From: Buxus sempervirens
Taxonomy: Eukaryota > Streptophyta > Magnoliopsida > Buxales > Buxaceae
NCBI GenBank assembly: GCA_947561395.2
Contig: OX387182.1
Coordinates: forward strand, 5,380,595 to 5,444,594
Reading direction: 5' to 3'
Length of the DNA stretch: 64,000 bases
Part shown: positions 2,930-46,970 of the stretch, piece after piece
How the letters are laid out: every line of letters begins with the position of its first letter
Numbering within the stretch: the first letter of the stretch is position 1
Made by a program: the position numbers and the translations under genes
The notes under the pieces: generated by a model
Told to the model about the DNA's origin: nothing
The model's input: only the letters and a program-made list of their open reading frames with translations
The model's database searches: none

Positions 2930-5680
2930 GCTTTGCTTAGGGGTAGATTTGAAAGACCAAAAACTTGGGCATATAAAAGGATGCCCTAATTTCTAATTAA
3001 GGGTTTGAAAACCCATTTCTCTTGTCTTGGACGTATAGAACAAAAGAGAGAGTTGTGGGAGCTTGCTTCAAAGCTTCAAGGAGAAGGAGAAGAAGAGGAG
3101 AGCTAGGAGAGGAGGTTGCTTCTCCATTAACATGTAAGTAGCAAACCCTTCCAAACAAAATGAATTACCAAAATTCGTATTCTCTCTCTAGGGTTTGAGT
3201 TATTTGAAGAAATGATCTTGCATGTTGCTATTTGTTTCTAAAATTCGTAGGTTTTGAATGTATAATGCTTTTGCTTAGTTTCCTAATGATTTGCCATGGA
3301 TTTACAACTCTATTGATCCTATTTTATATTAGGGTTTGAGATTTGTGTCTTGAATGGGGTTTCATGCGTTTGACTTGTGCTCATGTAGATTTGAGATAAA
3401 TCTTTGTTTCAGAAGATGTTTTTAAGTGTGTTGGGATGTTTTGTGATCACCTACTTTGATGTTGGAAAGGTTGTAAAGGATTTACATGAGTTTTGTGTTG
3501 AAATTAGTCAAAATACTCAAAATCCCGACCCTGCGATTAATCCTGAAAGTTGGCGATTAATCCTGAGCCAAACCCCTAAAACAGGTCTCTGTTATCTTAA
3601 ATCGCGAAACAGGATTAATCGCCCAGGGCTAATCGCGACCTTAGCGCGCGAACGTCAAACTGTAGCGCGCGCGCGTCGACCCTGTTTTAAGCCTGAGCGC
3701 GCGAACCTTTAACCTGAACGCCCAAACTTTGAGCTAATCGCCCCTGGGCGATCAATCCAGGGGCTAATCGTGGACCCTGTTTCTTGAGTTGTTCATCCTG
3801 TTTCTCCTCAACCCTCTTCCAAACAACCTAAGCCTCTCGCATAGCACCCTTATTACATGAAAGACAAAGACATTTAAGTAAATGTCCTGTGTATTTATTG
3901 CTCCATTTACTTAAGTCTTTACATGTAAATAAGGTTTTACCCCCCATTTGGAACCAATAAAAATACTCTCAAGGCCCAATTCCCAACCAATAAAAAGTCA
4001 ACTTTTCAGTTTATGCCTAAATTTCTAGTTTTCCCGATTTTCAAATAAGACCACTTTTTGAGTTTGATATCCAAATGAGTGATTCAGAAGCCCAGAAAAT
4101 TCTAGATGATTTGTATACCCTCCAATAGACTACAACCAGAAAATGAGCCCCAAACTCCTTGTAGATTTGTCTAGAAAAATTCGACACCGAAAAGTCAACG
4201 TTTTCAACCAGATTTAGAATATTTTTGAGGTCTAAAACTTTTTGTCTCGGAATCCATTGAATTTTGGTATGGTGACTTATTTGGGATTTTTAAGATCAAC
4301 CCAATCATTAAAAATGTGTTTTGTGGATTTTATGACCTTCGTTTTGATTTGGCTTGGATTTATGAAAGCAATGTTGAAAAACCCTTATACGATTTGGCAA
4401 GGTTTTGGCCTATGGTTTTATTGGCAGTGGATGGGGAATTCCACTTGCCCTTGGTATGGACTGGTAGTGGATGGGGAATTCCACTTAGTCCCGGTTGATT
4501 CAATAGTGGATGGGGAATTCCACTTGGCCTTGGTTGATTTAATAGTGGATGGGGAATTCCACTTGGCTTTGGTTTAAGCACTGGTTTTACTCTTGGAATT
4601 GAATGGTTTGTTTTGATTGACGAGTCGTCTAATTGGACGTTGTTCTTGGTGTGGATCCACAGTGAGTCTAATTAGTGTGTTGGTATTGGCTTGTTAGCTT
4701 TAATTGCCTTATCCATATAGCATTCCACTGTGGGGAATCAGTGAGGCCTTCTCGGGGAACAGAGGGCTGCGGCAACCCCCCGTCGAGGGGAACCGGCGGG
4801 AGTCCTTGCGATTCATCGAGCAGTGGGTGGGGAATCCCACTTAGTCTGGATCCTTGGTTAGGTTGACTACTTGCCAGCCCATACATGGGTACTCCGCTTG
4901 CTGAGATGTCCCTAGCTAGGCTTCTCTCTGTAAGTCGTGTAGGTGGCAATGGATACTGGTCATTAATCTAATTTACAGACATGCTAACCACGAGTCCTAA
5001 CAAGACATGTTTACAGTATTTGATCGTATTTGTTGATTTGATTGAGATATTTGAATTGGAATTTCTTTTATATCCGATTGAACTGTTTTGGTTTGCATTT
5101 AGTACTATATAATTGTGAATATCATCATGATGTTATAAAAACTGCATAAACTGTTTCTCTACATGCATGTTTGCTGCTTACTGGGACTTTAAGTCTCACG
5201 CGTGTTTTGTTTTACCGGATTTGTTTTCAGATCCACTTGGTGAGCCGCGTACCGGGGCAGTTATTGAGGGTGAGCTTGAGTAAAGGCTAGAGGGCTACCA
5301 TTTCTACCCGTAGTAGGGTTCTTATTATGATGATGTATTTTGTCTTGGGAATTGTATATGGGATGTAAATATTATCTTTGGACCTATACTCTTGGAAGAA
5401 TCTTTTGTACTTATCTGTATATTTTGGGAAGATCATTGTGAATGGTTAGTTGCCTTAGTTGTATTTTGTATGCACAGATATTATGTTTTGGAGATTATAG
5501 TACAGATGATCTTTTGATTATATGGAAAATTTTTATTCCATGCTTCTTTAGTCATGCACTCTGATAATTACATTGTAATTGCCCAGGAAATTGTGTTTAT
5601 CAGGTTCTATTGGGCCCATAAGTAGGTCTCGGGTACGGGTTGGTGCTGTGATAGGGCAGACCCGGATCTGGGGTGCTACA
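2930..5680 (+). mobile_element. Long LTR-like segment, probable Ty3/gypsy fossil
   Basis: The segment has the layout of a long plant LTR. A TATA-like ATATAAAAGG lies near 2972, followed by a purine-rich leader (3040-3130). There is a GC-rich CGATTAATC/GCGCGC stretch at 3520-3790 and a short tandem repeat at 4427-4575. The end GGTGCTACA at about 5680 resembles a gypsy LTR terminus. No gag or pol of its own is visible. Copia gag sequence starts directly after that end, so two elements are juxtaposed. The left boundary is uncertain. It is broken; the age is not measurable here. Confidence 0.4.
4427..4575. repeat. Tandem repeat, ~39-40 bp x 4
   Basis: GTGGATGGGGAATTCCACTT starts at 4427, 4467, 4506 and 4545, giving a 39-40 base period. 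A diverged fifth copy (GTGGGTGGGGAATCCCACTT) lies near 4824. Each unit contains the palindrome GTGGAATTCCAC in interrupted form. It is embedded in the LTR-like segment. Confidence 0.85.
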
Positions 5681-8600
5681 GCCAGGATCTGTACACTTAT
5701 GTTGATGGTAGTCTTCCAGCTCCATCTCAGTTCATCCCTTCCACCTCCAATGGTCCTCCTATACCCAATCCAGAATACCATACATGGAGAAGAACAGATC
5801 AATTAGTTCTGAGCATATTGTTCTCATCACTCTCAGAATCCATCATTGGTCATGTTCTCTCGGCCACATCTTCTCACTCTCTATGGATCTCTCTTGAAGC
5901 TATGTTCACATCACATTCTCAAGCTAAGGAGTTTCAGATTCGTTTTCAACTTACCAACTTATCAAAGGCCGAGCAGTCTATATCAGATTTTTTTGGTAAG
6001 GTCAGAGCTCTAGCAGACACCTTGGCTGCCACAGGAAATCCATTGCCTGATAAGGAACTTGTGACCTACATTCTCAATGGATTGGGTTCCTCTTATGAAT
6101 CCTTTGTTACGTCAATTACCACTAGAACAGACCCCATCTCTTCCCATGAGTTGTACCGCTTGCTCCTTCTTCATGAGAGTAGAATCTCTCATATCTCACG
6201 CAACTCTACAGTTGCATATGAACCTTCTGCTAATCTTACTTCTAGAGGCTCTCATGATCAACGGGGTCGTGGTTACTATCGTGGTGGCCACCAAGGGCGA
6301 GGTAGAGGCCGATCTATTCAGTTCAACAGTGGTCGAGGTGGTGGACGTTTTTCTCAATTTGGTTCTTCTCAGCAGCAATACAATGCTTATCGTCCCACCT
6401 GTCAAGTTTGTGGCAAGACAGGTCGTGTTGCCTTGCAATGTCATCATCGTTTTGATCACTCATATCAATCTGAAGCTCCAAGGTCTTTCTCTGCCAATTA
6501 CACAGCACCCAGCTCCCATTCAAACTCTACTTGGTACCCTGATTCAGCAGCTACACATCATGTTACAAATGATCTCAGCAACTTGAACATTTCATCAGAA
6601 CAATATCATGGAGGTGAGAGTCTTCGGGTTGGTAATGGTTCTGGGCTACCCATACAAAACATTGGTGAATCTTCTCTTCCATCACACTCTACTTCATTTC
6701 GTCTTCGTAATCTTCTTCATGTTCCTACAATTACTAAAAACTTAGTTTCTGTCCTTCAATTCTGTATAGATAATCATTGTTTCTTTGAATTTCATGCAAC
6801 TCATTTCTCTGTGAAGGATTCAACGACGGGGAAACTCCTCCTCACTGGTCCAACTAGTGATGGTTTATATGTTTTTCCATCTACTCTGTTCTCATCCTTG
6901 CCTTCAGCTCATCTTGGTGAAAGAACTACTTCAGCTCAGTGGCATTACAGACTTCGGCATCCTTCTCTACAGCTTGTCTCTCGTGTGTTACGTGCCAACC
7001 GCTTGCTGGTTTCTACAAATGATCCTCCATTTTTCTGCTCATCTTGCCCTCTTGCAAAGAGTCGACAACTTCCATTTCCTAACAGCTCAACTAAGCCTAC
7101 TGGGCCTTTACATTTAGTTTGTACTGATGTCTGGGGACCATCCCCTTATGTTTCTAGAAATGGATTCCGGTATTATATTTCTTTTATGGATTATTATACC
7201 AGATTCACTTGGTTCTTCCCTTTGAGGCTCAAGTCTGATGCTGTTAATGCATTTAACATTTTTCTTCCCCTTGTGGAACGGTTGTTTAATTCCAAACTTA
7301 TTAACTTACAAACAGATGGTGGTGGTGAATTTCAACCCATCTCTAACATTTGCACTAAACTTGGGATTACTCACCGTCTCTCTTGTCCACACACTCATCA
7401 GCAAAATGGCCTTATTGAACGTAAACACAGACATATTGTTGAGACTGGCCTAGCTCTCCTTGCACATGCATCACTTCCTTTTAAATTTTGGGCTGATGCC
7501 TTTGAAACTGCAGTTTTTCTTATTAATCGTTTACCCACCCCTGTTCTTAAAAATCAATCACCCTATTCCCTTGTGTATCATCAACCTCCTGATTATTCCC
7601 TTTTAAAAGTCTTTGGCTGTGAATGTTGGCCCAATCTGCGTCCATATAATAATCATAAGATTGATTTTCGGTCCACTTCCTGTCTCTTTCTTGGTTATAG
7701 TAATAGTCACAAAGGTTACAAATGCTTAGATCTTCAAAATAACAAATTCTATATTTCTCGTAATGCAATTTTCAATGAGTTATCCTTCCCATTTGTTACT
7801 GCCAAGCCCAGATCCTCTTCTTCTAAGCTCACTCCAGACATAGCCTCTCTTCCAATCTTTCCCACATCCATCCTTGGGCCTGGCCCAGCCTCCACTCATG
7901 GTCCATTACCTTCTAACCCCAATCCATCTTCTTCTATCTCTCCTTCCAGTATCTCCCCAACGACTCAATCCTCTCCTGGCCAATCTTCTTCTGACCACAC
8001 TTCCTCTTCTTCCTCCTTGCCTTCACATATTTCTTCCACAGTCCCATCTTCTACTTCTCATCATTTGATTCCTCCTAGATCTCCAATCATCACTTGTGCT
8101 CAAACCAATTCCTCTCGTCCCAAAATCTTCACTGATGGAACCATTCCTTACCCCCTTCCTCATTGTCTCACTTCCACAATTACTTTTCCTGATGAACCTT
8201 CAAGTTTTACTATTGCGTCACGTTTTCCAGAGTGGTGTGCTGCTATGTCTCGCGAGTACTCAGCCTTGATTGATACCAATACCTGGTCTCTTGTTCCTGC
8301 ACCTCCATCCTCTAATATTGTTGGCTGTAGGTGGATTTTCAGGACCAAATTCAAGGCTGACGGTTCTATTGACAGGCGCAAGGCACGTCTTGTTGCGAAA
8401 GGCTTTCATCAACAATCAGGTGTTGATTATAATGAGACTTTTAGCCCTGTTGTTAAACCATCTACCATACGTCTTGTGCTTTCAATTGCTGTTGCACATC
8501 ATTGGCCTCTTAGACAGATTGACATTCAAAATGCCTTCCTCCATGGCTTCCTCAATGATACTGTATACATGCAGCAGCCACAGGGATTCATTGATTCTGC

Positions 8601-9589
8601 TCATCCTGATTATGTATGCAAGCTCCACAAAGCAATATATGGCCTAAAACAAGCCCCAAGAGCGTGGTTCTCTCAGCTAAGTACCTGGCTAATCAGCTAT
8701 GGTTTTAATGCATCAAAAACTGATCCTTCTCTATTCATTCTCAGTCAAGGATCTCTGCGTTTATATGTTTTGGTATATGTCGACGACATGGTTATCACAT
8801 CGTCTGATCCTGCTGCAGTGGACTCTCTCATTCATGACTTGGGCTCTGTTTTTCCAGTTTCTTATTTGGGCAAGTTAAACTTTTTCCTTGGCATTGAAGT
8901 TGATTATACTAAGGATGGCATTCTTTTGTCTCAGCGGAAATATATAAAGGATCTTCTTCAGCGTTCTAATATGTTACATGCTAATCCTATCTCTAGTCCT
9001 ATGTTTGCCTCATTGAAGTTATCAAAGTTTGACTCTCCTGATTTTGGTGATCCATCCTTATTTCGGAGCATTGTTGGAGGTCTTCAATATCTCTCTCTCA
9101 TAAGGCCTGATATATCCTTTGCTGTTAATAAAGCATGTCAGTTCATGCATTCTCCCAAATTGTCTCATTGGACTGCTGTGAAGCGTATACTCAGGTAACT
9201 CTCTTCGTATCTCTTTCTGCAGTGCCAAAGACCAACTTGCTGATCCATTCACTAAGCCCTTAGTTTCTGATTGCTTTGCTCTTCTTCGAACGAGTCTCAC
9301 TGTGCTTGACACCCCACTGGACTCGCGGGGGCGTATTCAGCTAAAGAAAGACACATCTCAGATAAAGAGCAAATCTGCCACATCAGATAAACAGGAGGAG
9401 ATTCTAGAAAGGGAATAATAATCAGTTACTCCGTGATGTAACAAACTCTGTGATGCAACAAACTCTGTGATGTAACAAACAGATGCTCTGTTCTGTTACA
9501 ACTTGTAGTATAAAATACTAGTCATTGTAATACAGTTCGATCAAGAGAGAAAGGGTTTTTCATTAAGAAACTCTCTGAGTTCTAACATA
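5681..9589 (+). mobile_element. Ty1/copia retrotransposon fossil (RE1-like)
   Basis: A long open frame at 5818-9198 encodes copia domains in the usual order. These are a UBN2-type gag with a zinc-knuckle-like region near 6390-6440, a protease (DSAATHHV near 6541), a GAG-pre-integrase and integrase core (6900-7600), a linker rich in Ser/Pro/Thr, and reverse transcriptase with the YVDDM box near 8778. Traces of the RNase H end precede a single 3' LTR. The order PR-INT-RT is diagnostic of Ty1/copia, and similarity is to RE1/Ale-type elements (family judged by eye). The element is broken, with roughly two or three breaks, and only one LTR is seen, so LTR dating is not possible. The mostly open coding region suggests moderate youth. 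Its left edge meets an unrelated LTR-like end, and its right edge meets the GNA1 leader. Confidence 0.93.
9333..9589 (+). repeat. 3' LTR of the copia fossil
   Basis: The LTR starts just after a purine-rich tract (GCGGGGGCG) and ends near GTTCTAACA. It has a TATA-like GTATAAAATA near 9509. Three copies of an ~18-base unit (CTCTGTGATGTAACAAA) lie at about 9436-9487. Exact borders are judged from the polypurine tract and the CA end; no second LTR is present for comparison. Confidence 0.65.
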
Positions 9590-19994: not shown

Positions 19995-20932
<938 letters not shown>

Positions 20933-22798: not shown

Positions 22799-23190
22799 TA
22801 GGGCTCTAAATGGGTCGGATTCGAACAGGATCCATCCAAGATCTGAATTTGAATCCGATTAAGTTATAAGATATTCGAATCCGATTAAATATCCGATGGA
22901 TCCTTCATATTTGTTATTGAATTCGAATCCAAATATTGTTATAAAATCCAATTAAATTAGCTTTTCTTACAACTTACTATTTTCATATATATATGTTAGC
23001 TAATTTACTTATATAATATGTTAGATTATTTACTTAAATATCCTTATAAAATTCTAAAAATTTCAATCATATCTTAAATCTAATCGGATTCGGATTTTTG
23101 TGGGACAAATATACTAAAATCCGAATCCGATTATTAAACCGACTTAATCTTTAGATCCGTATTCGATCCGCTGGACATTTATTAGAATAA
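22799..23190. repeat. Diverged hAT-like repeat (TCGGATCCGAATCC type)
   Basis: It starts TAGGGCTCTAAATGGGTCGG and is dense in ATCCGATT/AATCGGAT words. This makes it a distant relative of the four hAT MITEs at 30-33 kb. The right terminus (…CCCTA) is not found, so it is decayed or cut short. Confidence 0.5.
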
Positions 23191-24053: not shown

Positions 24054-26271
24054 ATGCGGAGCTGCTTCCTCCATTTCCGCTCGCTTTCTCTTCTATTTCT
24101 TCTCCTTTCAGGTAATTCTCTTCAAGCTTCTTTAATAACTTGCTTTAGATTCAGTTTCATGGAGTTAAATTATATCTGAATACAGTGAAGATCTGATACG
24201 GTAAGAGTGGCGTTATAGTTTCTTGTTCGAAGTTCGGACGGTTTTTTTTGGTTTCTGTATTATGATGCGACAACTGTTTTTGCTGATTTTTTATGCGAGT
24301 ACTGTTTGTTCTTGACGCAACCGTTTGTTTTTGTGAGATTCATATGAAAATGAAGCATTGAGAAAGGTTTTAGAATACTCTGGTTAGTTTTTTTGACTTT
24401 TATGTTCATTCCTTCTGGTCAAAGGATTTGGAGGCTGATTTGTATAATCAGAAATGGAGGCTTTGGAGTTCAATTCCTTCTTGTTTATTTCCTCTTTCTT
24501 TGATGATCAATTCTAGTTCCCTGTTTTTTTACTGTAATTTGCTGAGTTTAATGTTATTTGAATCTGTAATTTTTTGAATTTAAACTCTAATTTTTGGTTT
24601 CAAAGCATAAGGTTTTGTTTAAGAGACTGAGAATTTTTTTTTCTTTTTTTAGCCATTTGGATCTGATATGCGATATTATCATATTTAGATTTAACAGAAG
24701 TTCTTAGAGGATGATGAAGAATCTAGTTCATGAAATTCGTATAAATTATTTCCTGGATTTCTATTTTATGTCAAGTTATTCAATTTATCTTAAACATTTT
24801 AGTTAAAGCTAGAATTGGACACTGAATTTAATAGGAACATAGAGTTTAAAACTAATAGTAATTAATTTATACATGCCCCTGAAATTTCTAGAAATTTTTT
24901 AGATGATCTCACCATTATACTAGCGACCATGACTTCATGAATTTGATTTCTGTTTTCAAAATCTTCCTTAATGGAGTTTCTATTTGAACTTGGCAATCCC
25001 ATTTTGTAGCAATTCTTAATTTCTATTTGTTGTGCTCGAATTTTTTTTCCAGGTTATTTTGTCCAAATCCTTGGACTTGGTGTTGGAATCAATTATGGTC
25101 AGATTGCAAACAATCTCCCATCTCCAGCTCAGGTCTCTTTGCTCCTTAGATCTCTCAGTATCAACAGAGTAAAACTCTATGATGCAGACCCGAACGTTCT
25201 ACGTGCCTTCTCCAATTCAAATGTCGACTTCATCGTTTCAGTTGGAAATGAGCAGCTCCAAAACATGGGTGACCCTAGCAAAGCTCAGGAATGGGTAAAA
25301 CAACATATTCAGCCCCACGTTCCCCAGACTAAGATCACTTCCGTCATCGTTGGAAATGAGGTCTTCTCAGGCAACGACACCCAATCAGTGTCTTATGTCG
25401 TCCCAGCAATGAAAAATATCTATGATGCTCTTGTTTCCCTTGGACTTGACAAGCAAATGAATGTCACTACTGCACATTCGCTTACAATCTTAGCAAGCTC
25501 CTTCCCTCCTTCATCTGGGGCTTTTCGGCAAGATCTTACTCAATACATGCAACAGCTTCTTGATTTTCATTCTCAGACTAGGTCACCCTTCCTCATTAAT
25601 GCATATCCTTACTTTGCCTACAAAGGCAGCCCAAATGAGGTGCCATTAGAGTATGTTCTGTTTCAGCCGAATCCAGGGATGACTGACCCAAATACAAATC
25701 TGAATTATGACAACATGTTGTATGCTCAAATTGATGCTGTTTATTCAGCTATTAAAGCAATGGGTCATACAGATGTTGAAGTTAGAATTTCCGAGACAGG
25801 TTGGCCATCTGGAGGAGACCCTGATGAGGCAGGGGCAACACCAGAGAATGCAGGGATTTATAATGGTAACTTGCTTCGCCGGATAGCGGAGAAGCAAGGT
25901 ACTCCGATGATGCCTTCCAATCCGATCAACATTTATGTTTTTGCGCTCTTTAACGAGAATCTTAAGACTGGACCGGCATCAGAAAGGAACTATGGACTAT
26001 ATTATCCGAATGGCAGTGCAGTTTATAACATTGGGTTACGGGGTGATCTTCCAGGGATAGCTTCAGCCTCTACAAAGATTAAGGTAAGAAACAGAGTACA
26101 TGTATTCTCCAAACATTTTCTTTCTTGACTACTGTTTTCATGGGAACTAATGGGTAGGTTAAGAAAATGAGACAATACATTTAATGTGATGCCTTTTCTC
26201 CTGTCATTTTTCAGGTGATGAGCATTCTGGGGTTTTTAATCTTCGCTACAACATTTTTAATCTGTGTTTGA
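24054..26271 (+). CDS. Glucan endo-1,3-beta-glucosidase, GH17, GPI type
   Basis: Three exons, 24054-24111, 25053-26083 and 26215-26271, join in frame to 381 residues. Exon 1 encodes a signal peptide (hydrophobic LSLLFLLLS), and the mature enzyme starts about GVGINYGQ (residues 29-35). GH17 enzymes hydrolyse 1,3-beta-glucan (callose) in walls and at plasmodesmata. The acid/base Glu is E122 in VIVGNEV, and the nucleophile is E267 in RISETGWPSGG. There is no C-terminal X8/CBM43 domain. The last exon gives a hydrophobic tail (SILGFLIFATTFLICV), which suggests a GPI-anchor signal. If the second intron were retained, the protein would end in KVRNRVHVFSKHFLS and lose the hydrophobic tail. The exon 1/exon 2 split within the signal-peptide region is typical of the family. 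The start has a good context (GAGATGC) and is the first ATG after the TATA box. Confidence 0.93.
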
Positions 26272-28920: not shown

Positions 28921-29829
28921 CTTAACACTACCCATCCACCACCACCATCATCATCACTATCGCTACAATTACCATTGTCTCCACCGCAATTATCATCCAC
29001 CCATTCACTCACCAACCATGAAATCTCCAGCCACCGCCGCCACCACCCTCACCATCAACCCACTTACCCATCACCATACCTTAACAACCATCACTACCTA
29101 TCTCCACCATAACAATGTATTCTGCCATTTTTATACTCTGTTACTTTTTTTTTAAGCAAAGCAAAGGTGAATCAAGTAGTTTTGTTTTACTTAAATTTTT
29201 GGATAAAAATAAAAATAATCTTCTTCTTTTTTCAACAGAAGCAATACCGAACGCGGTTTCTCTTACTTAATTCTTCATTTTCCACAGGATTTTGAGCAGA
29301 TTATTGAAAATCTGGATCGCATCATTTTCATAAGATATTGATGATAAGCACCTCCAATCCATGTCAATGTATTAAACATTATTTAAATTATCCAGAGGGT
29401 CAAGTGGCTCACTACCTGATGGTGTTAGCCTGTCGGGCTTTCACTTCATTGTCGCATATATGCTAAACATTCAAGTATTATCACAAACTACTTTCAAAAC
29501 CTGCAATTATAGCTCCTGCTGATGGTAACAACCGCTCAGAATCATGAAGAAACTACTGGCAAGAATTGTCCATATCTTCCCAATCTCATCAATGATAATA
29601 AAAAGAAATCTTTATTTCCTCAGTTATTGTCCCTGTGGAGCCGTTGAATTCCAAATGAACGATCAATTACCCCTAATAAAAGTCTCATTACAGCTGCCAA
29701 CTACAGCAACAAACCTTCCCCACTTTTTTTTTTTTTTTTTAATGAAACCTTCCCCACTTCATGCCTGTTGCGTGTGCAGTGGCGATAACCACATCGTCCA
29801 TTAAAAAAATGGCAAATCTCCTTCAAGAC
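28921..29829. other. Spacer with ACC-rich low-complexity stretch
   Basis: 28930-29110 is CACCACCATCATCACC-rich low-complexity DNA. The remainder, to 29829, shows no gene or named repeat. Confidence 0.5.
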
Positions 29830-30057
29830 GAAACCAGAACATACCGTCATGTGAGTGAGACAGCTAAAAGGGTACAAAAGATCTATAAGGGCTCGGATTG
29901 AATTGATGTAGCGCAGTGGGTAAACCCCGTTGGCCTAAGGAAAACAGTTTTTAACTAAGGGTGAAAAATATTCTGGATTTAAGCTCCTTGTTCAAGTGGG
30001 ATCCACCACTATCAATAGCTTCTTACTACTTAGGGTTTTACTCTTTTAACTGTCAAA

Positions 30058-30562
30058 TAGGGCTGTCAATGGGTCGGATAAAGATCCGAATTCGACCCGA
30101 TTATCCGAATATGGATCTTAGCTTTAGATCCGATTATATTTGGATTCGAATATGGTATTGCACATATTCGACCTGATAAAGATCCGACCATTTATTTTGT
30201 ATATATGTTATGTTTTTTAGGCCTTTTTAAGTCTTTTTATATATTAGTATTAGTATAGAAGGAATGAAGATTTCATATAATATTTATTGATATAAGGTCA
30301 TAATATAAGACAAATTTGAATTAACACATCCTTATTTGATCCACTAACTTAAGGTTTATAATATCTTAATTTTTTTTCATATATAATGTAATCGGATTCG
30401 GATATCGGATAAGGATAATCGGTCGTATTCGAATTCGGATCGAATTCGGTATTAAATGTGAAAGATCCGTCGGATAATCGGTTCGAATTCGTCGGATTTT
30501 CTTATCGGATCGAATTCGTATCTTATTAGACCCGTACCGTATTCGACCCGTTTACAACCCTA
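30058..30562. mobile_element. hAT MITE copy 1 in the array
   Basis: Starts TAGGGCTGTCAATGGGTCGG and ends GTTTACAACCCTA. The right flank is GTCAAAAC (30563-30570); the left flank is a shortened GTCAAA. The interior is ATCCGATT/TTCGGAT-rich. Non-coding, 505 bases. Confidence 0.88.
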
Positions 30563-31042
30563 GTCAAAACCCATTTAAACCAGACCATACCGTCCATGTG
30601 ACTGAGACAGCTAAAAGGGTACAAAAGATCTATAAGGGCTCGGATTGAATTGACGTAACGCAGTCGGTAAACCCCATTGGCCTAAGAAAAGCAGTTTTTA
30701 ACTAAGGGTGCAAAATATTTTGGATTTAAGCTCCTTATTCAAGTGGGATCCACCACTATCAATAGCTTCTTACTACATAGGGTTTTACTCTTTTAATTGT
30801 TAAAACCCATTGAAACCAGACCATACAGTCCATGTGAGTGAGACAACTAAAAGGGTACAAAAGATCTATAAGGGCTCGGATTGAATTGACGTAACACAGT
30901 CGATAGACCCCATTGGCCTAAGGAAAGTAGTTTTTAACTAAGGGTGCAAAATATTTTGGATTTAAGCTCCTTGTTCAAGTGGGATCCACCACTATCAATA
31001 GCTTCTTACTACTTAGGGTCTTACTCTTTTAACTGTCAAAAC

Positions 31043-31569
31043 TAGGGCTGTCAATGGGTCGGATAAAGATCCGAATCCAAGCCGAATTCGACTCGATTAT
31101 CCGAATATGGATCTTAGCTTTAAATCCGATTATCCGAATAAGATCCGATTATATTCGGATTCGAATATGGTATTGCACATATTCGACCCGATAAAATCCA
31201 ACCGTTTATTTTGTATATATGTTTTGTTTTTTTAGGCCTTTTTAAGTCTTTTTATATATTAGTATAGAAGGAATGAAGATTTCATATAATATTTATTGAT
31301 TTAAGGTCATAATATAAGACAAATTTGAATTAATACATCCTTATTTGATCCACTAACTTAAGGTTTATAATATCTTAATTTTTTTCCATATATAATGTAA
31401 TCGGATTCGGATATCGGATAATCGGTCGGATTCGAATTCGGATCGAATTCAGTATTAGATGTGAAAGATCCGTCGGATAATTGGTTCGAATTCGGATATC
31501 GGATTTTCTTCTCGGATCGAATTCGGATCTTAGCAGATCTGTACTGTATTCGACTCGTTTACAACCCTA
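31043..31569. mobile_element. hAT MITE copy 2 in the array
   Basis: The same element, 527 bases, has intact 8-base flanks GTCAAAAC on both sides (31035-31042 and 31570-31577). The left end is TAGGGCTGTCAATGGG and the right end TTTACAACCCTA. Confidence 0.92.
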
Positions 31570-32068
31570 GTCAAAACCCATTGAAACCAGACCATACTGT
31601 CATGTGAGTATGGAAAGCAGTTTTTAACTAAGGGCTCGGATTGAATTGACGTAAGGGCTCGGATTGAATTGACGTAACTCAGTCGGTAAACCCCATTGGC
31701 CTAAGGAAAGCAGTTTTTAACTAAGGGTGCAAAATATTTTGGATTTAAGCTCCTTGTTCAAGTGGGATCCACCACTATCAAGTATCAATAGCTTCTTATT
31801 ACTTAGGGTTTTACTTTTTTAATTGTCAAAACCCATTGAAACTAGACCATACCATCCATGTGAGTGAGACAGCTAAAATGGTACAAAAGATCTATAAGGG
31901 CTCGGATTGAATTGAAGTAACGCAGTCGGTAAACCCCATTGGCCTAAGAAAAGCAGTTTTTAACTAAGGGTGCAAAATATTTTGGATTTAAGCTCCTTGT
32001 TCAAGTGGGATCCACCACTATCAATAGCTTCTTACTACTTAGGGTTTTACACTTTTAACTGTCAAAAC

Positions 32069-32576
32069 TAGGGCTGTCAATGGGCGGATAAAAATCCGAA
32101 TCCGATCCGAATTCGACCCGTTTATCCGAATATGGATCTTAGCTTTAGATCCGATTATCCGAATAAGATCCGATTATTCTAATCCGATTATATTCGGATT
32201 CAAATATGGTATTGCACATATTCAACCCGATAAAGATCCGACCGTTTATTTTGTATATATGTTATGTTTTTTTAGGCCTTTTAAAGTCTTTTTATATATT
32301 AGTATAGAAGGAATGAAGATTTCATATAATATTTATTGATTTAAGGTCATAATATAAGACAAATTTGAATTAATACATCCTTATTTGATCCACTAACTTA
32401 AGGTTTATAATATGTTAATTTTTTCCATATATAATGTAATCGGATTTGGATATCGGATAATCGGTCAGATTTGAATTCGGATCGAATTCAGTATTAGATG
32501 TGAAAGATCTGTCGGATAATCGGTTCGAATCGGATCTTAGCAGATCTGTACCGTATTCGACCCGTTTACAACCCTA
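32069..32576. mobile_element. hAT MITE copy 3 in the array
   Basis: The same element, 508 bases, is flanked by GTCAAAAC at 32061-32068 and 32577-32584. It has small internal differences from the other copies, including a shortened right-hand subterminal region. Confidence 0.92.
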
Positions 32577-32820
32577 GTCAAAACCCATTGAAACTAGAGC
32601 ATACCGTCCATGTAAGTGAGATAGCTAAAAGGGTACAAAAGATCTATAAGGGCTTGAATTGAATTGACATAACGCAGTCGGTAAACCCCATTGGCTTAAG
32701 GAAAGCAGTTTTTAACTGAGGGTGCAAAATATTTTGGATTTAAGCTCCTTGTTCAAGTGGGATCCACCACTATCAATAGCTTCTTACTACTTAGGGTTTT
32801 ACTCTTTTAATTGTCAAAAC

Positions 32821-33343
32821 TAGGGCTGTCAATGGGTCAGATAAAGATCCGAATCCGATCAGAATTCGACCCGATTATCCGAATATGGATCTTAGCTTTA
32901 GATCCGATTATCCGAATAAGATCTGATTATTCGAATCCGATTATATTCGGATTCGAATATAGTATTGCACATATTAAACCTGATAAAGATCCGACCGTTT
33001 ATTTTGTATATATGTTATGTTTTTTTAGGCATTTTTAAAGTCTTTTTATATATTATTATAGAATGAATGAAGATTTCATATGATATTTATTGATTTAAGG
33101 TCATAATATAAGACAAATTTGAATTAATACATCCTTATTTGATCCACTAACTTAAGGTTTATAATATCTTAATTTTTTTCCATATATAATGTATTCGGAT
33201 TCGGATATCGGATAATCGGTCGGATTTGAATTTGGATCAAATTCGGTATTAGATGTGAAAGATAATCGGTTCGAATTTGAATATCGGATTTTCTTATTGG
33301 ATCTTAGCAGATCTGTACCGTATTCGACCCGTTTACAACCCTA
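32821..33343. mobile_element. hAT MITE copy 4 in the array
   Basis: The same element, 523 bases, is flanked by GTCAAAAC at 32813-32820 and 33344-33351. The left end is TAGGGCTGTCAATGGG and the right end TTTACAACCCTA. Confidence 0.92.
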
Positions 33344-33587
33344 GTCAAAACCCATTGAAACCAAACCATACCGTCCACGTGAGTGAGACAGCTAAAAGGG
33401 TACAAATGATCTATAAGGGCTCAGATTGAATTGACGTAACGCAGTCGGTAAGCCCCATTGGCCTAAGGAAAGCAATTTTTAACTAAGGGTGCAAAATATT
33501 TTGGATTTAAGCTCCTTGTTCAAGTGGGATCCACCACTGTCAATAGCTCCTTACTACTTAGGGCTTTACTCTTTTAACTGTCAAAAC

Positions 33588-35306
33588 CCATAAGAAATAG
33601 ATTGTGGGTTTTGGTCAAATTTTACCATCTGATTTGAAATACAACTTTCAAAAACCCTACCAAAAAGCTAAGTGGACTCTAGAACCAAAATCCAAAATCC
33701 AAAAACCTTACCAATATGTTCAGTTCATTTTTTGGTTTTTGGGTTGGAGTGGTCAATTCTCAATTCAAACCAAATGAAACCGAGTTGCACCCCCAATCTA
33801 TATCTATACCATATATAATAAGAATAGGCTTTTTGAATAAGCATGCCAGCAGCTATGCATCACTTCACAAAAAACCCTTACCGTTCGTTGTTAAAGCATA
33901 ATTAATATAGAATTAAAATAGTCAAAACTTTCCTATTTGTTTAAAATTTGGACAGGTGCAAAACTTTTTTTTTGCCGTACAAGTTAAATTAACTATAAAT
34001 CTATAACTAATAAAAAAAGATTAAAAAATTTTAAAAAAATAGAAAATTCTAAATAGGAGGGCAAAGTCAAGGGTGATAGGCCCCATCGGAGTCATCGCAC
34101 GCAAATTGAAAGCTAATATTGGTAAGAGAAAATGGGCGGATGGTGATGGAGGAGGAGAATGACTAGGTTTGGCGTAAGTGTCGTGTCATCGATGCCGCCT
34201 TTTGACCAATGTTGGATGCTGGTGACGGGCCATTGAGAAGGCCGTTGAAACTTTGAAAATGCCTTAACTTTCAATTTGATTGTTGATTGCGATGATTAAA
34301 ATGATAACTGCCGGCCAATATGTACTAGAACAACTTTCTTGATGTGAAATTTGTGGTTGTGGGTTAATATGAAATCTTTCTTTATTCTTTTCCTATCTTA
34401 CTTGCTAAAACAAATTTATTGGTGGTGAAAATGTTAATTTTTCTTTTTCTCTGGAAAATAATTAACTTCCAAAAAAATATAGAAGTGATTTTTCCTATAA
34501 TTAGAAAAATATTTTATCCCATTTAAATTTTCATTAAAACAAATATGAAGAAAGTTTCAAAGTTTTGAAAAATATTTCTTTTTTCCACCCTTCTGATGAA
34601 ACAAACATAATCTTCGGGTAAGAGAGAGCCTTGGTATTTCAATCTTTGAAGCATGAGAGGATTGGCTGTTATGAAAAATATCGGAATACCAGGTTTTCTA
34701 TGACCCCTTTTTTTTTTTTTCGTGAATGAGAAGGGAAGAAGGGGCTACCAGCATGGCCAAGCCCCCTTGATTTTGACCAAAGTGGCTTTTTCGTTGCCAC
34801 GGAGTGTTTGGATTGAGCCATAGCTACCAACCATCCTGGCTTTGTCGGGAGGATTGTACTGTCAACACAGCATCACAAAAGTGTAATGAACTTTGCAGAC
34901 AAAGGGTCTAATTCTTGGGACTAATGGAGCTTTGATCCTAAGACCTCCAAACCACATGTAATGGGAGTAGCGGCAAGACTATTGGGCCACCACTTCCGTG
35001 GTAGGTTTTTTGTGACTATGACAACTCGGATTTTGGCCTGTGTCAGTGTTCACAAATAGGTGATAGCTTTGTGGGCCTGGAGTGGAAAATGGGCTTTCGT
35101 ATTCCCTTGTGTTAGTTAACGATACAGGCAGCCAGACTTGAGGCCGTTACTTTTTTATTGGGTTTGTTTGTACATTTAGAAACCGTAGATTTTAAGCTTT
35201 AAGCAAACCAAAGAGATTGCGTTTAATGGTGAAAATCTGCACAAGACAAAACCCTGTTAGCAACCACTTACTGTGGTTTTAGCGAATTTAGGTTCATAAG
35301 TTTTCA
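33588..35306. other. Gene-free spacer between repeat blocks
   Basis: No gene is supported. TCTATACCATATATAATAAG near 33806 resembles a plant Helitron 5' end, but no matching CTRR end is visible. The rest is AT-rich with poly-T and poly-A tracts. Confidence 0.4.
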
Positions 35307-35314
35307 GTCACCAA

Positions 35315-36073
35315 TAGGGCTGCAATTCGGTGCGGTTCCATTCAGGTTGGCCTCAACCCAAGACCAAACCAAGGTTATTGATGGTCGGCCCAAAACCGAA
35401 CTGAACCGACCTCAGAAGTGAAATACCCAAACCGAAAACTGAACCGATTATTTAAATAAAACCCGTAACCCAACCCAACCCAAACCGAACCGAATTGCAA
35501 ATTTCAGTTTGGTTCGATTCAGTTTGGGTCATTTTCCCATTCTTAAAGCCTGTTATCAAGAGAGAGATTTCCACTTTTGCCCAAAAAAAAAAATTTTAAA
35601 GAATATATACAACAAATTTAAAGGATCATCACTTACATGCGGTCCAATCCCTTAAGTAGTTCACATGCATACATAAGATGGAGCAAAGAGCTTAGAATCC
35701 CAAGTCATATGTTAATTGTTTTGGATCGCACTTTTGAGCTCATGAATCAATTTAATAATTAACTACAAAGATTTATAAAATAATAATCTTTTTCATTATT
35801 TTATAACTTATAATTTATAAGTTATATTTTATTATTACAACTTTATCTATTATATATTTGATATATATTATTATATTGTGGTTCAATTCCGTTCAGGTGA
35901 ACACTTAGGAAATTCGGTTCGGTTTGGTTAACCCAAAACCGAACCAAACAAATTCAGTTCTCTATTTTTAGAACCAAAACCTACCCAAAGACTATATAAC
36001 CCAAACCAAACTGACCCAAAGTCGAGTTTGATCGATTCGGTTTCGGTTTTAACCGACCCAAGTTGCAGCCCTA
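35315..36073. mobile_element. hAT-like non-autonomous element, 759 bp
   Basis: The termini are TAGGGCTGCAATTCGG and ACCCAAGTTGCAGCCCTA (inverted repeats). They are flanked by GTCACCAA (35307-35314) and GTCACCAG (36074-36081), an 8-base target duplication with one difference. The subterminal regions are rich in CCAAACCGAACC and its complement; the centre is AT-rich. No transposase. Confidence 0.85.
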
Positions 36074-37249: not shown

Positions 37250-39120
37250 AAATTAGGGAAACAATGGGGTTTTGGGTTTTGATATTCGGCTTTTGAAAGC
37301 ATACCCGTCGGAGGAATGCAAGAACCAGTTCCCTCCATTGCAGCAAAAGGTTAGTATCTCTGTTTTAGGTTTTTGTTTCTTTTTTCTTTTTATAATATTC
37401 GAATTTTTTTTTCTCTTCCAATACTCGTGAGTTTAATCTATGGATTAATTCTATTGTGATCAGCCTTCCTCCTACCTTTACTATGATGATTAATTTGTGA
37501 TTAACGGTGTCTGGGAGCTTCTTGCATATGGGGTTGACGATCCATAGAGTAATTTGAAACCAAAGTATGAATTGAGAACGAATTTAAGGGGTTTGAAACC
37601 TGAAATGGCTTCTTGGATATGGGGTTAACGATCCGAGAATAACTGATTTGTCTTATTGTTTAAAAATGTGGAATATCACAGGAAATGGAGAAGAGTTGAT
37701 TTGATTTCTGTTCCAGTTCTTCACCTCCGTCTTAATTTAATAGCTAGGTTAAAAATTAAAGGAATTTATTTGTAATCTTGCAATTTTAAGTCTAAGTGAT
37801 GGTATAAGATGAAGATGGAAGCGAAATGAGTCTTCCAAAGCTCAGGAAAGCTTACAAACAAAAGGCGTTTCTATTTTGGTGTTTCACTAGCTTTAATTAC
37901 TGAGTTAATGCTCGTGTAACTGAACAGGGGAACATAAAGCCAGTTAAGCAGGTCGATTGCAGAGAAGTGCTAAAGCAATTTAAACCTACTTTATCAAATC
38001 AATCTGAATGTACCTTTCACCAAGTGACTTTTTTTTCCCATTTGCTCCATTTTGTTATCAGAAACATCATGTTGTATACAAGTCAGTGTACGTCTCTAAT
38101 TTTTAATATACTTTTTTATTTTAAATTTTTTTTTCAACAAATGCATTATATTAAAATTTTGATTCAGCAGATATCTTGTTTTGAGTAGTGCTAGGCTGTT
38201 TTTGAGGTAATCAATTTGCTTTGGAACAATCAACTTTGAGTTCTGAATTTCAGGCATACCATTTTAAATTTGAAATTTTCAGAGACTTTCAGTGGCTTGA
38301 TTCTCATGGTGGAACTATTGTTGTTGTCTTTTCAAAACTTTATTTTGTAGATTTTGTCCTGTATTCGTGAGTAATATTCATGGATTAGTCATTTTGCACT
38401 CTCATTTTGTATGGTTAAAGAACTTTGGTACTTAGAATCCTCTAATTACATGATATGGCTTTATTAGGCATATTATATTTGTTTTCCCTTTTTTCCTTTT
38501 TTGGGATCTTTTCTTTTTTCCTTTTCCAAATTTTTATTTCCTTTTGGGATATAGGTGGAGATAGGTTTATGGATCTAGAACATGTACCTTCTGTTTTGTT
38601 TTATTGAAGAGCTTTGATAGTTGGGATCATATAGTATATGATAAGCTTATAGTTTGGTTAATTTTTGGACTCAAATGTATCAGTAACTGTTTCTGTTTGA
38701 AGCTACAAGCAAATTTTATGTGTTTACATTCTAAAAATTCAGGTCTTTGGATATTGGTACGAAACTCAGTAGTAGGTTGGTAATTTCACCACTACGACCA
38801 TCTCAACAAGCTTGAATATTTTATCACCTCAAGAATTTTGATAATTTTATATGAAATTATGTTGATCAGATTTTTTTTTCCTTGTCATCATTATTATTAT
38901 CTTTATATTATATTATAGTTTACTGATAAGTTATTTTGTAAATGATTACTTGTGCAGAATTTAGCTTGGTTGCAAAGATGGCATGAAGTATAAACCCAAA
39001 GAAGAGAACTTTTATAGATTTCAATTTTAATTCAGCCCATATACCACACAATTCTGTAGCTAGTAATGTTGAAAAGGAACTTTGTCGAGCAAACAAGCGA
39101 AGGATTCACACTCTTGCAGA
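37250..39120 (+). other. Probable PPR-gene leader exon and 5' UTR intron
   Basis: A plausible leader runs to CAAAAG/GTTAGTATC (donor at 37350). An acceptor at 38956-38957 (TTGTGCAG) gives an intron of about 1.6 kb, T-rich and without a coding exon. A very short upstream reading frame (ATGGCATGA, near 38978) lies in the second leader exon. The leader structure is inferred from splice signals only. Confidence 0.4.
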
Positions 39121-40578
39121 ATGGCCTTCAGAAAAAATCTCCCAAAACCCATCATCCAACAATCTCCTTCAATGCTTTCCCCTCTGAGAAAAAGTCCTAA
39201 TAATCTTACTAAACTACCAGAGACCATTCTTGTTCCTCTCCCCACAGTCTCTCTTTCCATCACAACTCAAGGTCAGCTCTTACAGTTCCTGAAAGCTCAT
39301 CTCAAACCCCCTTTCACCCCTCAAGATCTCCTAACTTTTTTAAAGAAAAAGCTTCACCACCACCCCAAGTTCACTCAATTTGATCTCCACATCTTTCGGT
39401 GGGCCTCAGAGATTGACTCATTTCGTCACGATCACTCCACCTACGAATGGATAACAAGAACCCTAGCAATCACAAATCGGTTTGATGGTCTTCACCTTGT
39501 TCTTGAAGGTATGATCTCAAACCCTTGCCCTTGTTCGGATGGAATTTTCTCATGCCCTAAGACTGAGTCTATATTCAGATTTGCCATCAATTCATACTGT
39601 AAAGCTGGCCAACTGGATGAGGCATTGGTTGCCTTTGAAAATATGCGGAAGTCAATTGATGGGAAACCTAGCTTAGTTCTTTATAATATATTGATCAATG
39701 GGTTTGTTAAATTCAGGGAACATGAAAAAGCTTTGGATTTGTACAGAAAGATGCTGAAGGACAAGGTTAAACCTGATGTGTTTACTTTTAATATTCTGAT
39801 CAGTAGTTACTGCCGCAATTCACAGTTTGAATCAGCTCTTGAGTTGTTTAAAGAGATGAGGGTCAAGGGTTGTGATCCTAATGTGGTTAGTTTCAATACT
39901 CTGATTAAAGGGTTTTTCAGAGAGAGGAAGTTCAATGAGGGCATTGGGGTGGCTTATGAGATGCTTGATTTGGGGTGTGGCTTTTCCATTGCAACCTGTG
40001 AGATTCTTCTGGATGGAATTTGTAGAGAAGGTAGAGTTTTAGATGCTTGTAATCTCTTGATTGATTTCTTGAGAAAAGGAGCTGTGCCCGATGGGTTTGA
40101 TTATTTCTATCTTATTGAGAAACTTTCTCAGATAGGAAACATGGATAGAGCACTGGAGATAGTGAATGAGCTGTGGGGAAACAGAAAGTTTCCTAGTTCT
40201 GTTGCTTGTGCTACTCTATTAGAAGGTCTAAGGAAATCAGGAAGGATTGAAGAAGCTTTTAGATTGACGGAAAAGATGCTGAATGAGGGTATAGTACCAG
40301 ATGGTGCGACTTGTAATTATCTCCTTCAAGATCTTTGTAGCATGGGAAGGACAGTGGATGCAAATAGATTGAGGTTACTAGCTTCTAGAAAAGGTCTGGA
40401 TCCTGATGGTATGACATTTAAGATTTTGGTGTCTGGGTATTCAAGAGAGGGTAAAGAGTATGAGGGGGAGCGTGTGTTGGATGAGATGTTGGATAAGGGA
40501 TTTATACCTGATCTTGCTACCTATAACAGGCTGTTGGATGGATTGTGTAGAGGAAATAAGTCTGTTCTTCAGAAATGA
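39121..40578 (+). CDS. P-class pentatricopeptide repeat protein
   Basis: The 485-residue single-exon protein starts at the ATG of MAFRKNLPKPIIQQ. Upstream in-frame codons contain no ATG. Residues 1-50 are basic and Ser/Pro-rich with almost no acids, fitting an organellar (probably mitochondrial) targeting peptide. About nine and a half 35-residue PPR motifs run from residue ~149 to the end (e.g. LVLYNILINGFVK, DVFTFNILISSYCR, NVVSFNTLIKGFFR, DLATYNRLLDGLCR). All are P-type, with no E or DYW extension. P-class proteins bind organellar RNA to stabilise it or to promote its splicing or translation. The layout (an N-terminal conserved block around FLKAHLKPPFTPQDLL, then the PPR tract) recalls the Arabidopsis At2g36240 type from memory. 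The specific RNA target cannot be read with confidence. Confidence 0.92.
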   Translation: MAFRKNLPKPIIQQSPSMLSPLRKSPNNLTKLPETILVPLPTVSLSITTQGQLLQFLKAHLKPPFTPQDLLTFLKKKLHHHPKFTQFDLHIFRWASEIDSFRHDHSTYEWITRTLAITNRFDGLHLVLEGMISNPCPCSDGIFSCPKTESIFRFAINSYCKAGQLDEALVAFENMRKSIDGKPSLVLYNILINGFVKFREHEKALDLYRKMLKDKVKPDVFTFNILISSYCRNSQFESALELFKEMRVKGCDPNVVSFNTLIKGFFRERKFNEGIGVAYEMLDLGCGFSIATCEILLDGICREGRVLDACNLLIDFLRKGAVPDGFDYFYLIEKLSQIGNMDRALEIVNELWGNRKFPSSVACATLLEGLRKSGRIEEAFRLTEKMLNEGIVPDGATCNYLLQDLCSMGRTVDANRLRLLASRKGLDPDGMTFKILVSGYSREGKEYEGERVLDEMLDKGFIPDLATYNRLLDGLCRGNKSVLQK

Positions 40579-46239: not shown

Positions 46240-46970
46240 GCCGGAAACAGTGGTATATCCCTGGCGGAAAAGATCTTTCTGGCGGCTAAGAAACTCGCCG
46301 GCAACTACCTGGGGCGGTTTCCGAACCGCCGGAATAACGACCTATCACCGGCAATTTCTGCAAAACGCCGGAAATGGATGTTTCATCTCGCCAGTACCAC
46401 ATCACGGGCGGTTCCTGGTAACTGCTAGTAAATCATGCCACTGCCGGCCTTCGTAAAACACCCAAAATGGATTTTTACTTGACTTTGGTATCGCTGGTCG
46501 AACATCAGGGGCGGCTCTGCATAACCGCCGGAAATGGGGCAGGAGCTCGCCGCTAAAACTCAGTGGCGGTTTTAAATAACCGCCGCAAATAGGTTATTCG
46601 TCGGCTCAGGAACTCGACGGTAAAAGATAGGGGCGGTTCTGTATAACCGCCGGAAAATAAAGAGCGTAAGAGTTCGCCGGTAAAACTTCTATGGCGGTTT
46701 CTGATAACCGCCGCAAATATGTTTTTCGTCGGCAATCACCAGTAAAAATAGGGGCGGTTCCATATAACCGCCGGAGAATGTACCTGCAGCTCGTCGGTAA
46801 AACATTAGTGATGAGTGGTGGTCAAAATAATCGCAGGAAATTTCCTGGGGGACAACTCGTAATTTATGGGGATGATTTACCCGCAGTGCGAGAAAGATGC
46901 CATCTCCAGTTAAACGGCCGGAAAAATCTAATCACTGGGGGAGGGGCTTTTTTTTTTTTTTTTGGTAGTG
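46240..46970. mobile_element. CACTA (En/Spm) element, one terminus with subterminal repeats
   Basis: The right end is TTTTTTTTTGGTAGTG at 46970, the inverse of a CACTACCAAAAA terminus. It is followed by ACT, a candidate 3-base target duplication. Inside lie about seven imperfect palindromes of the form GGGCGGTTnnnnATAACCGCCGG, near 46309, 46409, 46509, 46563, 46630, 46691 and 46751. They alternate with CTCGCCGGTAAAAC-type spacers. Such subterminal arrays bind CACTA transposase. The opposite CACTA terminus was not found, so the element is cut short or its left end is degenerate. Confidence 0.75.

Follow-up and report, generated by a model that had tools for sequence, protein, structure and literature searches.

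A tandem array in Buxus sempervirens with occupied and empty copies of one hAT-type MITE site

In a 64,000-nucleotide stretch of the Buxus sempervirens genome (contig OX387182.1 of assembly GCA_947561395.2, positions 5,380,595 to 5,444,594 of the forward strand; referred to here as the window, whose own coordinates are used throughout), seven head-to-tail units at 29830-33587 carry four copies of a MITE that appears to be of the hAT type, together with three empty copies of its insertion site. The best explanation is very probably a single insertion of the MITE into a small tandem array, followed by unequal exchange among the units. We prefer a single insertion because the copies share the same base and the same orientation, the empty slots are free of footprints, and the units and the MITEs have diverged to similar degrees.

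Array layout and MITE copies

Judged by its genes, the window resembles plant nuclear DNA. The array sits between a glycosyl hydrolase 17 gene on its left (25010-26128) and a gene for a PPR protein on its right (39073-40578). Elsewhere in the window are a 2Fe-2S ferredoxin-type domain (20159-20932), a long open frame of 1190 aa at 5626-9198 that by eye resembles a Copia-type polyprotein, irregular tandem repeats of ~22 and ~89 bases of the CTAAGGTACCCCC type at 1922-2643, and a 128-base tandem repeat in 2.3 copies, rich in GGCGGTT...AACCGCC motifs, at 46507-46780.

The initial annotation described seven head-to-tail units of ~235 bases. Seven units were confirmed, with alike junctions and a period of 236, and comparison of unit 3 (U3) with the remaining six gives E values of 4.7e-71 to 4.4e-103, so that chance is not at issue; the description has to be amended for U1, which is shortened (222 nt), and for U4, which is rearranged and 255 nt long, while U2, U3, U5, U6, and U7 are 236 nt each. 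Each unit closes in an 8-bp slot, GTCAAAAC or a near-copy of it, and along the array the slots read M,0,M,0,M,M,0, where M is a MITE after the unit and 0 is an empty slot. All units and MITEs lie on the plus strand. U1, at the left edge of the array, is missing the unit's initial 13 bases and occupies 29830-30051, or 29830-30057 with its slot, GTCAAA at 30052-30057, which is two bases short. U2 (30563-30798) begins with the right target-site duplication of M1 (GTCAAAAC, 30563-30570) and is followed by an empty slot, GTTAAAAC at 30799-30806, with which U3 (30799-31042) starts; the left duplication of M2 (31035-31042) stands at the end of U3. U4 (31570-31824) carries 7 inserted nucleotides near 31780 as well as a scar at ~31610-31677, and is likewise followed by an empty slot, GTCAAAAC at 31825-31832, which opens U5 (31825-32068), at whose end is the left duplication of M3 (32061-32068). 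U6 (32577-32820) carries the left duplication of M4 (32813-32820), and the last unit, U7 (33344-33587), has the third empty slot, GTCAAAAC at 33580-33587, at the right end of the array.

The four MITEs, M1 (30058-30562, 505 nt), M2 (31043-31569, 527 nt), M3 (32069-32576, 508 nt), and M4 (32821-33343, 523 nt), follow units 1, 3, 5, and 6 at the same base, in one orientation throughout and with ends TAGGGCTGTCAA...CAACCCTA, in agreement with the earlier description of four occupied slots at the same position. That three of them have perfect duplications also held, as GTCAAAAC flanks M2, M3, and M4 on both sides; at M1 the right duplication is complete and the left one is the shortened GTCAAA. 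Each empty slot consists of one 8-mer and shows no footprint of excision, so that it appears either never to have held a MITE or to have regained its sequence by exchange; two are exact and one has a C-to-T change (GTTAAAAC). An uninterrupted target had previously been placed at two junctions, of which that at 31825-31832 is exact and that at 30799-30806 bears the substitution, and the slot at 33580-33587 had been missed.

The MITEs have short terminal inverted repeats of the hAT type, TAGGGCTGTCAATGGGTC at the left end and, read on the opposite strand, TAGGGTTGTAAACGGGTC at the right end; in M3 the left string is shorter by its final T, and M2 has an A in place of a G in the right string. By these ends and the 8-bp duplication, rather than by a database match, M1-M4 are assigned to hAT as a putative MITE family. 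Their G+C is 0.31-0.33, no stop-to-stop open reading frame of at least 110 aa occurs within the array, M2 matches the other three copies at a reported E = 0.0, and mutual identity is 94.1-96.1% over ungapped columns. The nearest other relative within the window is a diverged element end at 22799-22934 (TAGGGCTCTAAATGGGTCGGAT), ~72% identical over 138 columns, whose opposite end was not located. Exact-pattern scans of viral and of bacterial/archaeal contigs, non-plant collections that provide no evidence of absence, returned 0 relatives, and a literature search with the MITE end sequences returned, by title, 10 papers on Huntington's disease, 1 on mRNA localisation to myelin, and nothing on transposons. 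The slot GTCAAAAC fits the target consensus nTnnnnAn, which an excerpt of PMC2803484 reports for the hAT element Hermes. The window also contains a 759-bp hAT-like element at 35315-36073, with ends TAGGGCTGCAA...TTGCAGCCCTA and flanks GTCACCAA/GTCACCAG (7/8 alike); its flank fits nTnnnnAn as well, and its ends and interior are unlike those of M1-M4.

The unit was further considered as a tRNA-derived SINE. ARAGORN and Rfam at gathering score detect no tRNA in the array, and this candidate was rejected; relaxed Rfam on 29700-33700 gave three matches, all far under the family cut-offs. At 29909-29920, U1 has an A-box-like string, TAGCGCAGTGGG, with no exact match in units 2-7.

Divergence among units and MITE copies

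Every unit and every MITE has private differences. With gaps counted, private alignment columns number 2-8 in U2, U3, U5, U6, and U7 and 8-53 in the MITEs; U1 has 16, counting those at its edge, and U4 has 39, counting those of its scar. Sequence falsely repeated by the assembly would be near-identical, and the probability that the array is an assembly artefact therefore seems close to negligible.

For the comparison of all seven units, alignment columns 1-15 (the non-homologous start of U1) and 41-90 (the U4 scar) were masked. Pairwise unit divergence is then 4.0-8.1%, with a mean of 6.3% (95% bootstrap 4.6-8.1), a range overlapped by that of the MITEs (mean pairwise divergence 4.9%, bootstrap 3.7-6.3). 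The units have three parsimony-informative substitution columns, compared with means of 3.2 (kappa 2) and 4.5 (kappa 6) in star-tree simulations (unmasked, six informative columns, two of them within the U4 scar and one a gap), and their relationships fit a star. The best-supported branch joins U2, U4, and U6 (SH-aLRT 81.4, bootstrap 57), and the remaining branches have SH-aLRT 0. Divergence so close to a star suggests that the array grew in a short burst. The array had also been called a frozen record of its own growth, which is overstated, since the tree of units is star-like and gives no resolution at all among those on the right; the order of growth is not readable from the window alone.

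Five informative substitutions are found in the MITEs, above the usual star (P 0.010 with kappa 2; 0.061 with kappa 6), with 3 informative sites for M1M2|M3M4 vs. 2 for M1M4|M2M3. The AU test on the quartet gives P 0.835 for M1M2|M3M4, 0.253 for M1M4|M2M3, and 0.033 for M1M3|M2M4, and the SH test rejects no grouping. Two gapped stretches split M3 and M4 from M1 and M2, and one overlapping gap is common to M1 and M3, in a repetitive part of the alignment. The MITEs thus weakly favour M1 with M2 against M3 with M4. The quartet of left-flank units prefers the first two vs. the last two, as the MITEs do, by only 0.4 log units, and the right-flank quartet shows no preference among groupings. The check suggested by the initial annotation, i.e., concordance of unit and MITE trees, accordingly does not decide the matter: left units and MITEs weakly show the same grouping, right units are uninformative, and the units are star-like, so that the two trees do not disagree, yet cannot be said to agree.

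Four matrices (distance in bp, rank, parity, and occupancy) were compared with unit divergence in Mantel tests, whose P values are uncorrected. Divergence increases with distance along the array (exact test, 126/5040, P 0.025 by bp; 276/5040, P 0.055 by rank), a mild likeness of near units such as local duplication would give. Occupied units are no closer to one another than to empty ones (P 0.63). A unit-MITE-unit dimer as the amplified block was hinted at by the alternation of C and T with unit number 4 nt left of the slot and by the U2+U4+U6 branch. Over the whole unit, those of the same parity are not closer (exact Mantel P 0.43), and beyond that one site the dimer finds no support.

Number of insertions and growth of the array

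Under a simple model, the chance that three further independent insertions match the same site and orientation is 9.5e-9 with uniform targeting, and 1.8e-5 if, of the 236 phases of U3, only the 19 that fit nTnnnnAn are open to insertion. We also searched for minimal histories, with arrays of up to 8 units, events equally weighted, and one path printed per case. Four insertions take 8 events, three take 7, and two with gains only take 6; one insertion takes 6 events with one conversion or 7 with a unit loss, and within arrays of up to 8 units the pattern was not reached from one insertion with gains only. Event counts alone cannot separate one insertion from two; it is the coincidence argument that does so. 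Four independent insertions into a hotspot of the repeated unit would draw on the fit of GTCAAAAC to the Hermes consensus (excerpt of PMC2803484), but they would have to meet the same base and orientation four times, leave without insertion the 18 other unit phases that fit the consensus, and spend the most events (8), and we find them scarcely credible. One insertion followed by amplification, which the initial annotation had favoured over four independent ones, is upheld as the best account by the coincidence of base and orientation, and with its 6 or 7 events it is also shorter than the history with four.

M4 probably needs an extra step beyond simple gains, namely a conversion, a unit loss, or a second insertion. 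The step is assigned to M4 because making the second of two adjacent occupied slots is the costly step in the printed paths for one and two insertions. Several observations count against a single insertion: the star-like unit tree, the uninformative right-flank quartet, the lack of closeness among occupied units, and the 6 events of two insertions with gains only, as few as with one insertion and a conversion. A further one is the base 4 nt left of the slot, where all four combinations occur: C with a MITE in U1, U3, and U5, T with a MITE in U6, T with an empty slot in U2 and U4, and C with an empty slot in U7. Recurrent mutation, a very close exchange, or a second insertion is therefore needed. 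In a two-insertion reading, only M1-M3 stem from one insertion, multiplied as unit-MITE-unit blocks, and M4 comes from another element of that family entering at the identical site. In its favour are the T of U6, otherwise seen only beside the empty slots of U2 and U4, and a shortest gains-only history of 2 insertions and 6 events. However, the T rests on a single C/T site, the gaps common to M3 and M4 and, weakly, the MITE quartet put M4 beside M3, and a second match to the same base and orientation is improbable; altogether we regard a second insertion as unlikely.

It is also conceivable, though we give it very little credence, that the slot is a true hotspot made by the duplication junction, at which the MITE entered repeatedly at one base, M4 at least having arrived on its own. 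The slot is 5-13 bp away from the presumed unit breakpoint and falls within an arm of a short GGGTTTT...AAAACCC inverted repeat. A hairpin at the slot finds no support in DNA folding, where two slots and one MITE end gave ordinary values (z -1.0, -1.7, -1.2). Were this reading true, tandem junctions would be preferred targets of hAT MITEs.

Alternatively, the seven-unit array may have come first, with the MITE spreading from one slot by non-reciprocal copying and no further growth. Among histories with a single insertion, the one with a conversion is shortest (6 events), and U4 shows copying from elsewhere in a unit, but such a spread would require three conversions of a ~520-bp insert, and no conversion tract stands out: shared runs extend over at most 7 of the 42 ungapped variable columns in the MITEs (P 0.55) and 10 of 36 in five units with U1 and U4 left out (P 0.37). 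We consider gene conversion as the sole route improbable.

For the preferred history, i.e., one insertion with subsequent unequal exchange, the following course may be proposed. A stretch of ~236 bp was probably duplicated in tandem at the imperfect repeat GAAACYAGA/GAAATAGA of the two array edges. The right flank past the last slot reads CCATAAGAAATAGA, and units start with CCATTGAAACYAGA; at the left edge of the array, the match to the units begins at GAAACCAGA. The right-edge microhomology of CCATAAGAAATAGA to the unit start CCATTGAAACTAGA (33588-33601, plus strand) is thus a possible breakpoint of the founding duplication, and a shuffle test of the edge microhomology gave P 0.016 for a comparison picked after inspection of the sequence. 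These edges suggest that the first duplication arose across a short imperfect repeat. The hAT-type MITE would then have inserted once into GTCAAAAC, 5-13 bp left of the presumed breakpoint, when the array had perhaps three units, and unequal exchange among units, a mechanism that would fit the observed pattern, may have multiplied occupied and empty slots together. M4 may reflect one more exchange with loss, or gene conversion. The array would have grown within a short span, and its units and MITEs appear to have diverged largely independently since then, with no homogenisation detected.

In the U4 scar (31610-31677), 21 bases that match a part of the unit lying further downstream precede a 21-base TAAGGGCTCGG... 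stretch present in two copies; the first join falls within a shared TAAGGG, and an exact 23-bp tandem repeat is present. In these features the scar resembles the product of template-switching repair.

The array would illustrate, in nature and on a small scale, how tandem duplication can turn one transposon insertion into several "insertions" with perfect target duplications, and counting copies flanked by target-site duplications as separate transpositions would overcount here.

Comparison with known systems

The array is ordinary transposon and tandem-repeat biology and leaves general views unchanged. M1-M4 are like other MITEs of the hAT superfamily (non-autonomous Class II elements) in their 8-bp duplication, TAGGG...CCCTA ends, length of ~0.5 kb, low G+C, and lack of a long open frame; only their copy-along history is unusual. 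Searches of the literature for MITEs that lie within tandem arrays or share an insertion site did not find this configuration by title and start of abstract; most subscription papers lay outside their scope, and we claim no priority.

Tandem arrays related to transposable elements, and their growth by unequal exchange or non-allelic recombination, are reviewed in PMC9659126. As far as an excerpt of that review describes them, they are similar to the present array in growing by exchange between units and in their mixed unit composition, but here there are only seven units at one locus within the window, and the MITE rides along and did not spawn the unit. The nearest described case, judged from the start of the abstract of PMC4912750, is Pokey of Daphnia, which is described as inserting at a specific rDNA site and at other locations. 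With Pokey and mPok, too, a DNA transposon and its MITEs are found at one fixed site of tandemly arrayed units; in the Buxus array, by contrast, one insertion has seemingly been copied passively.
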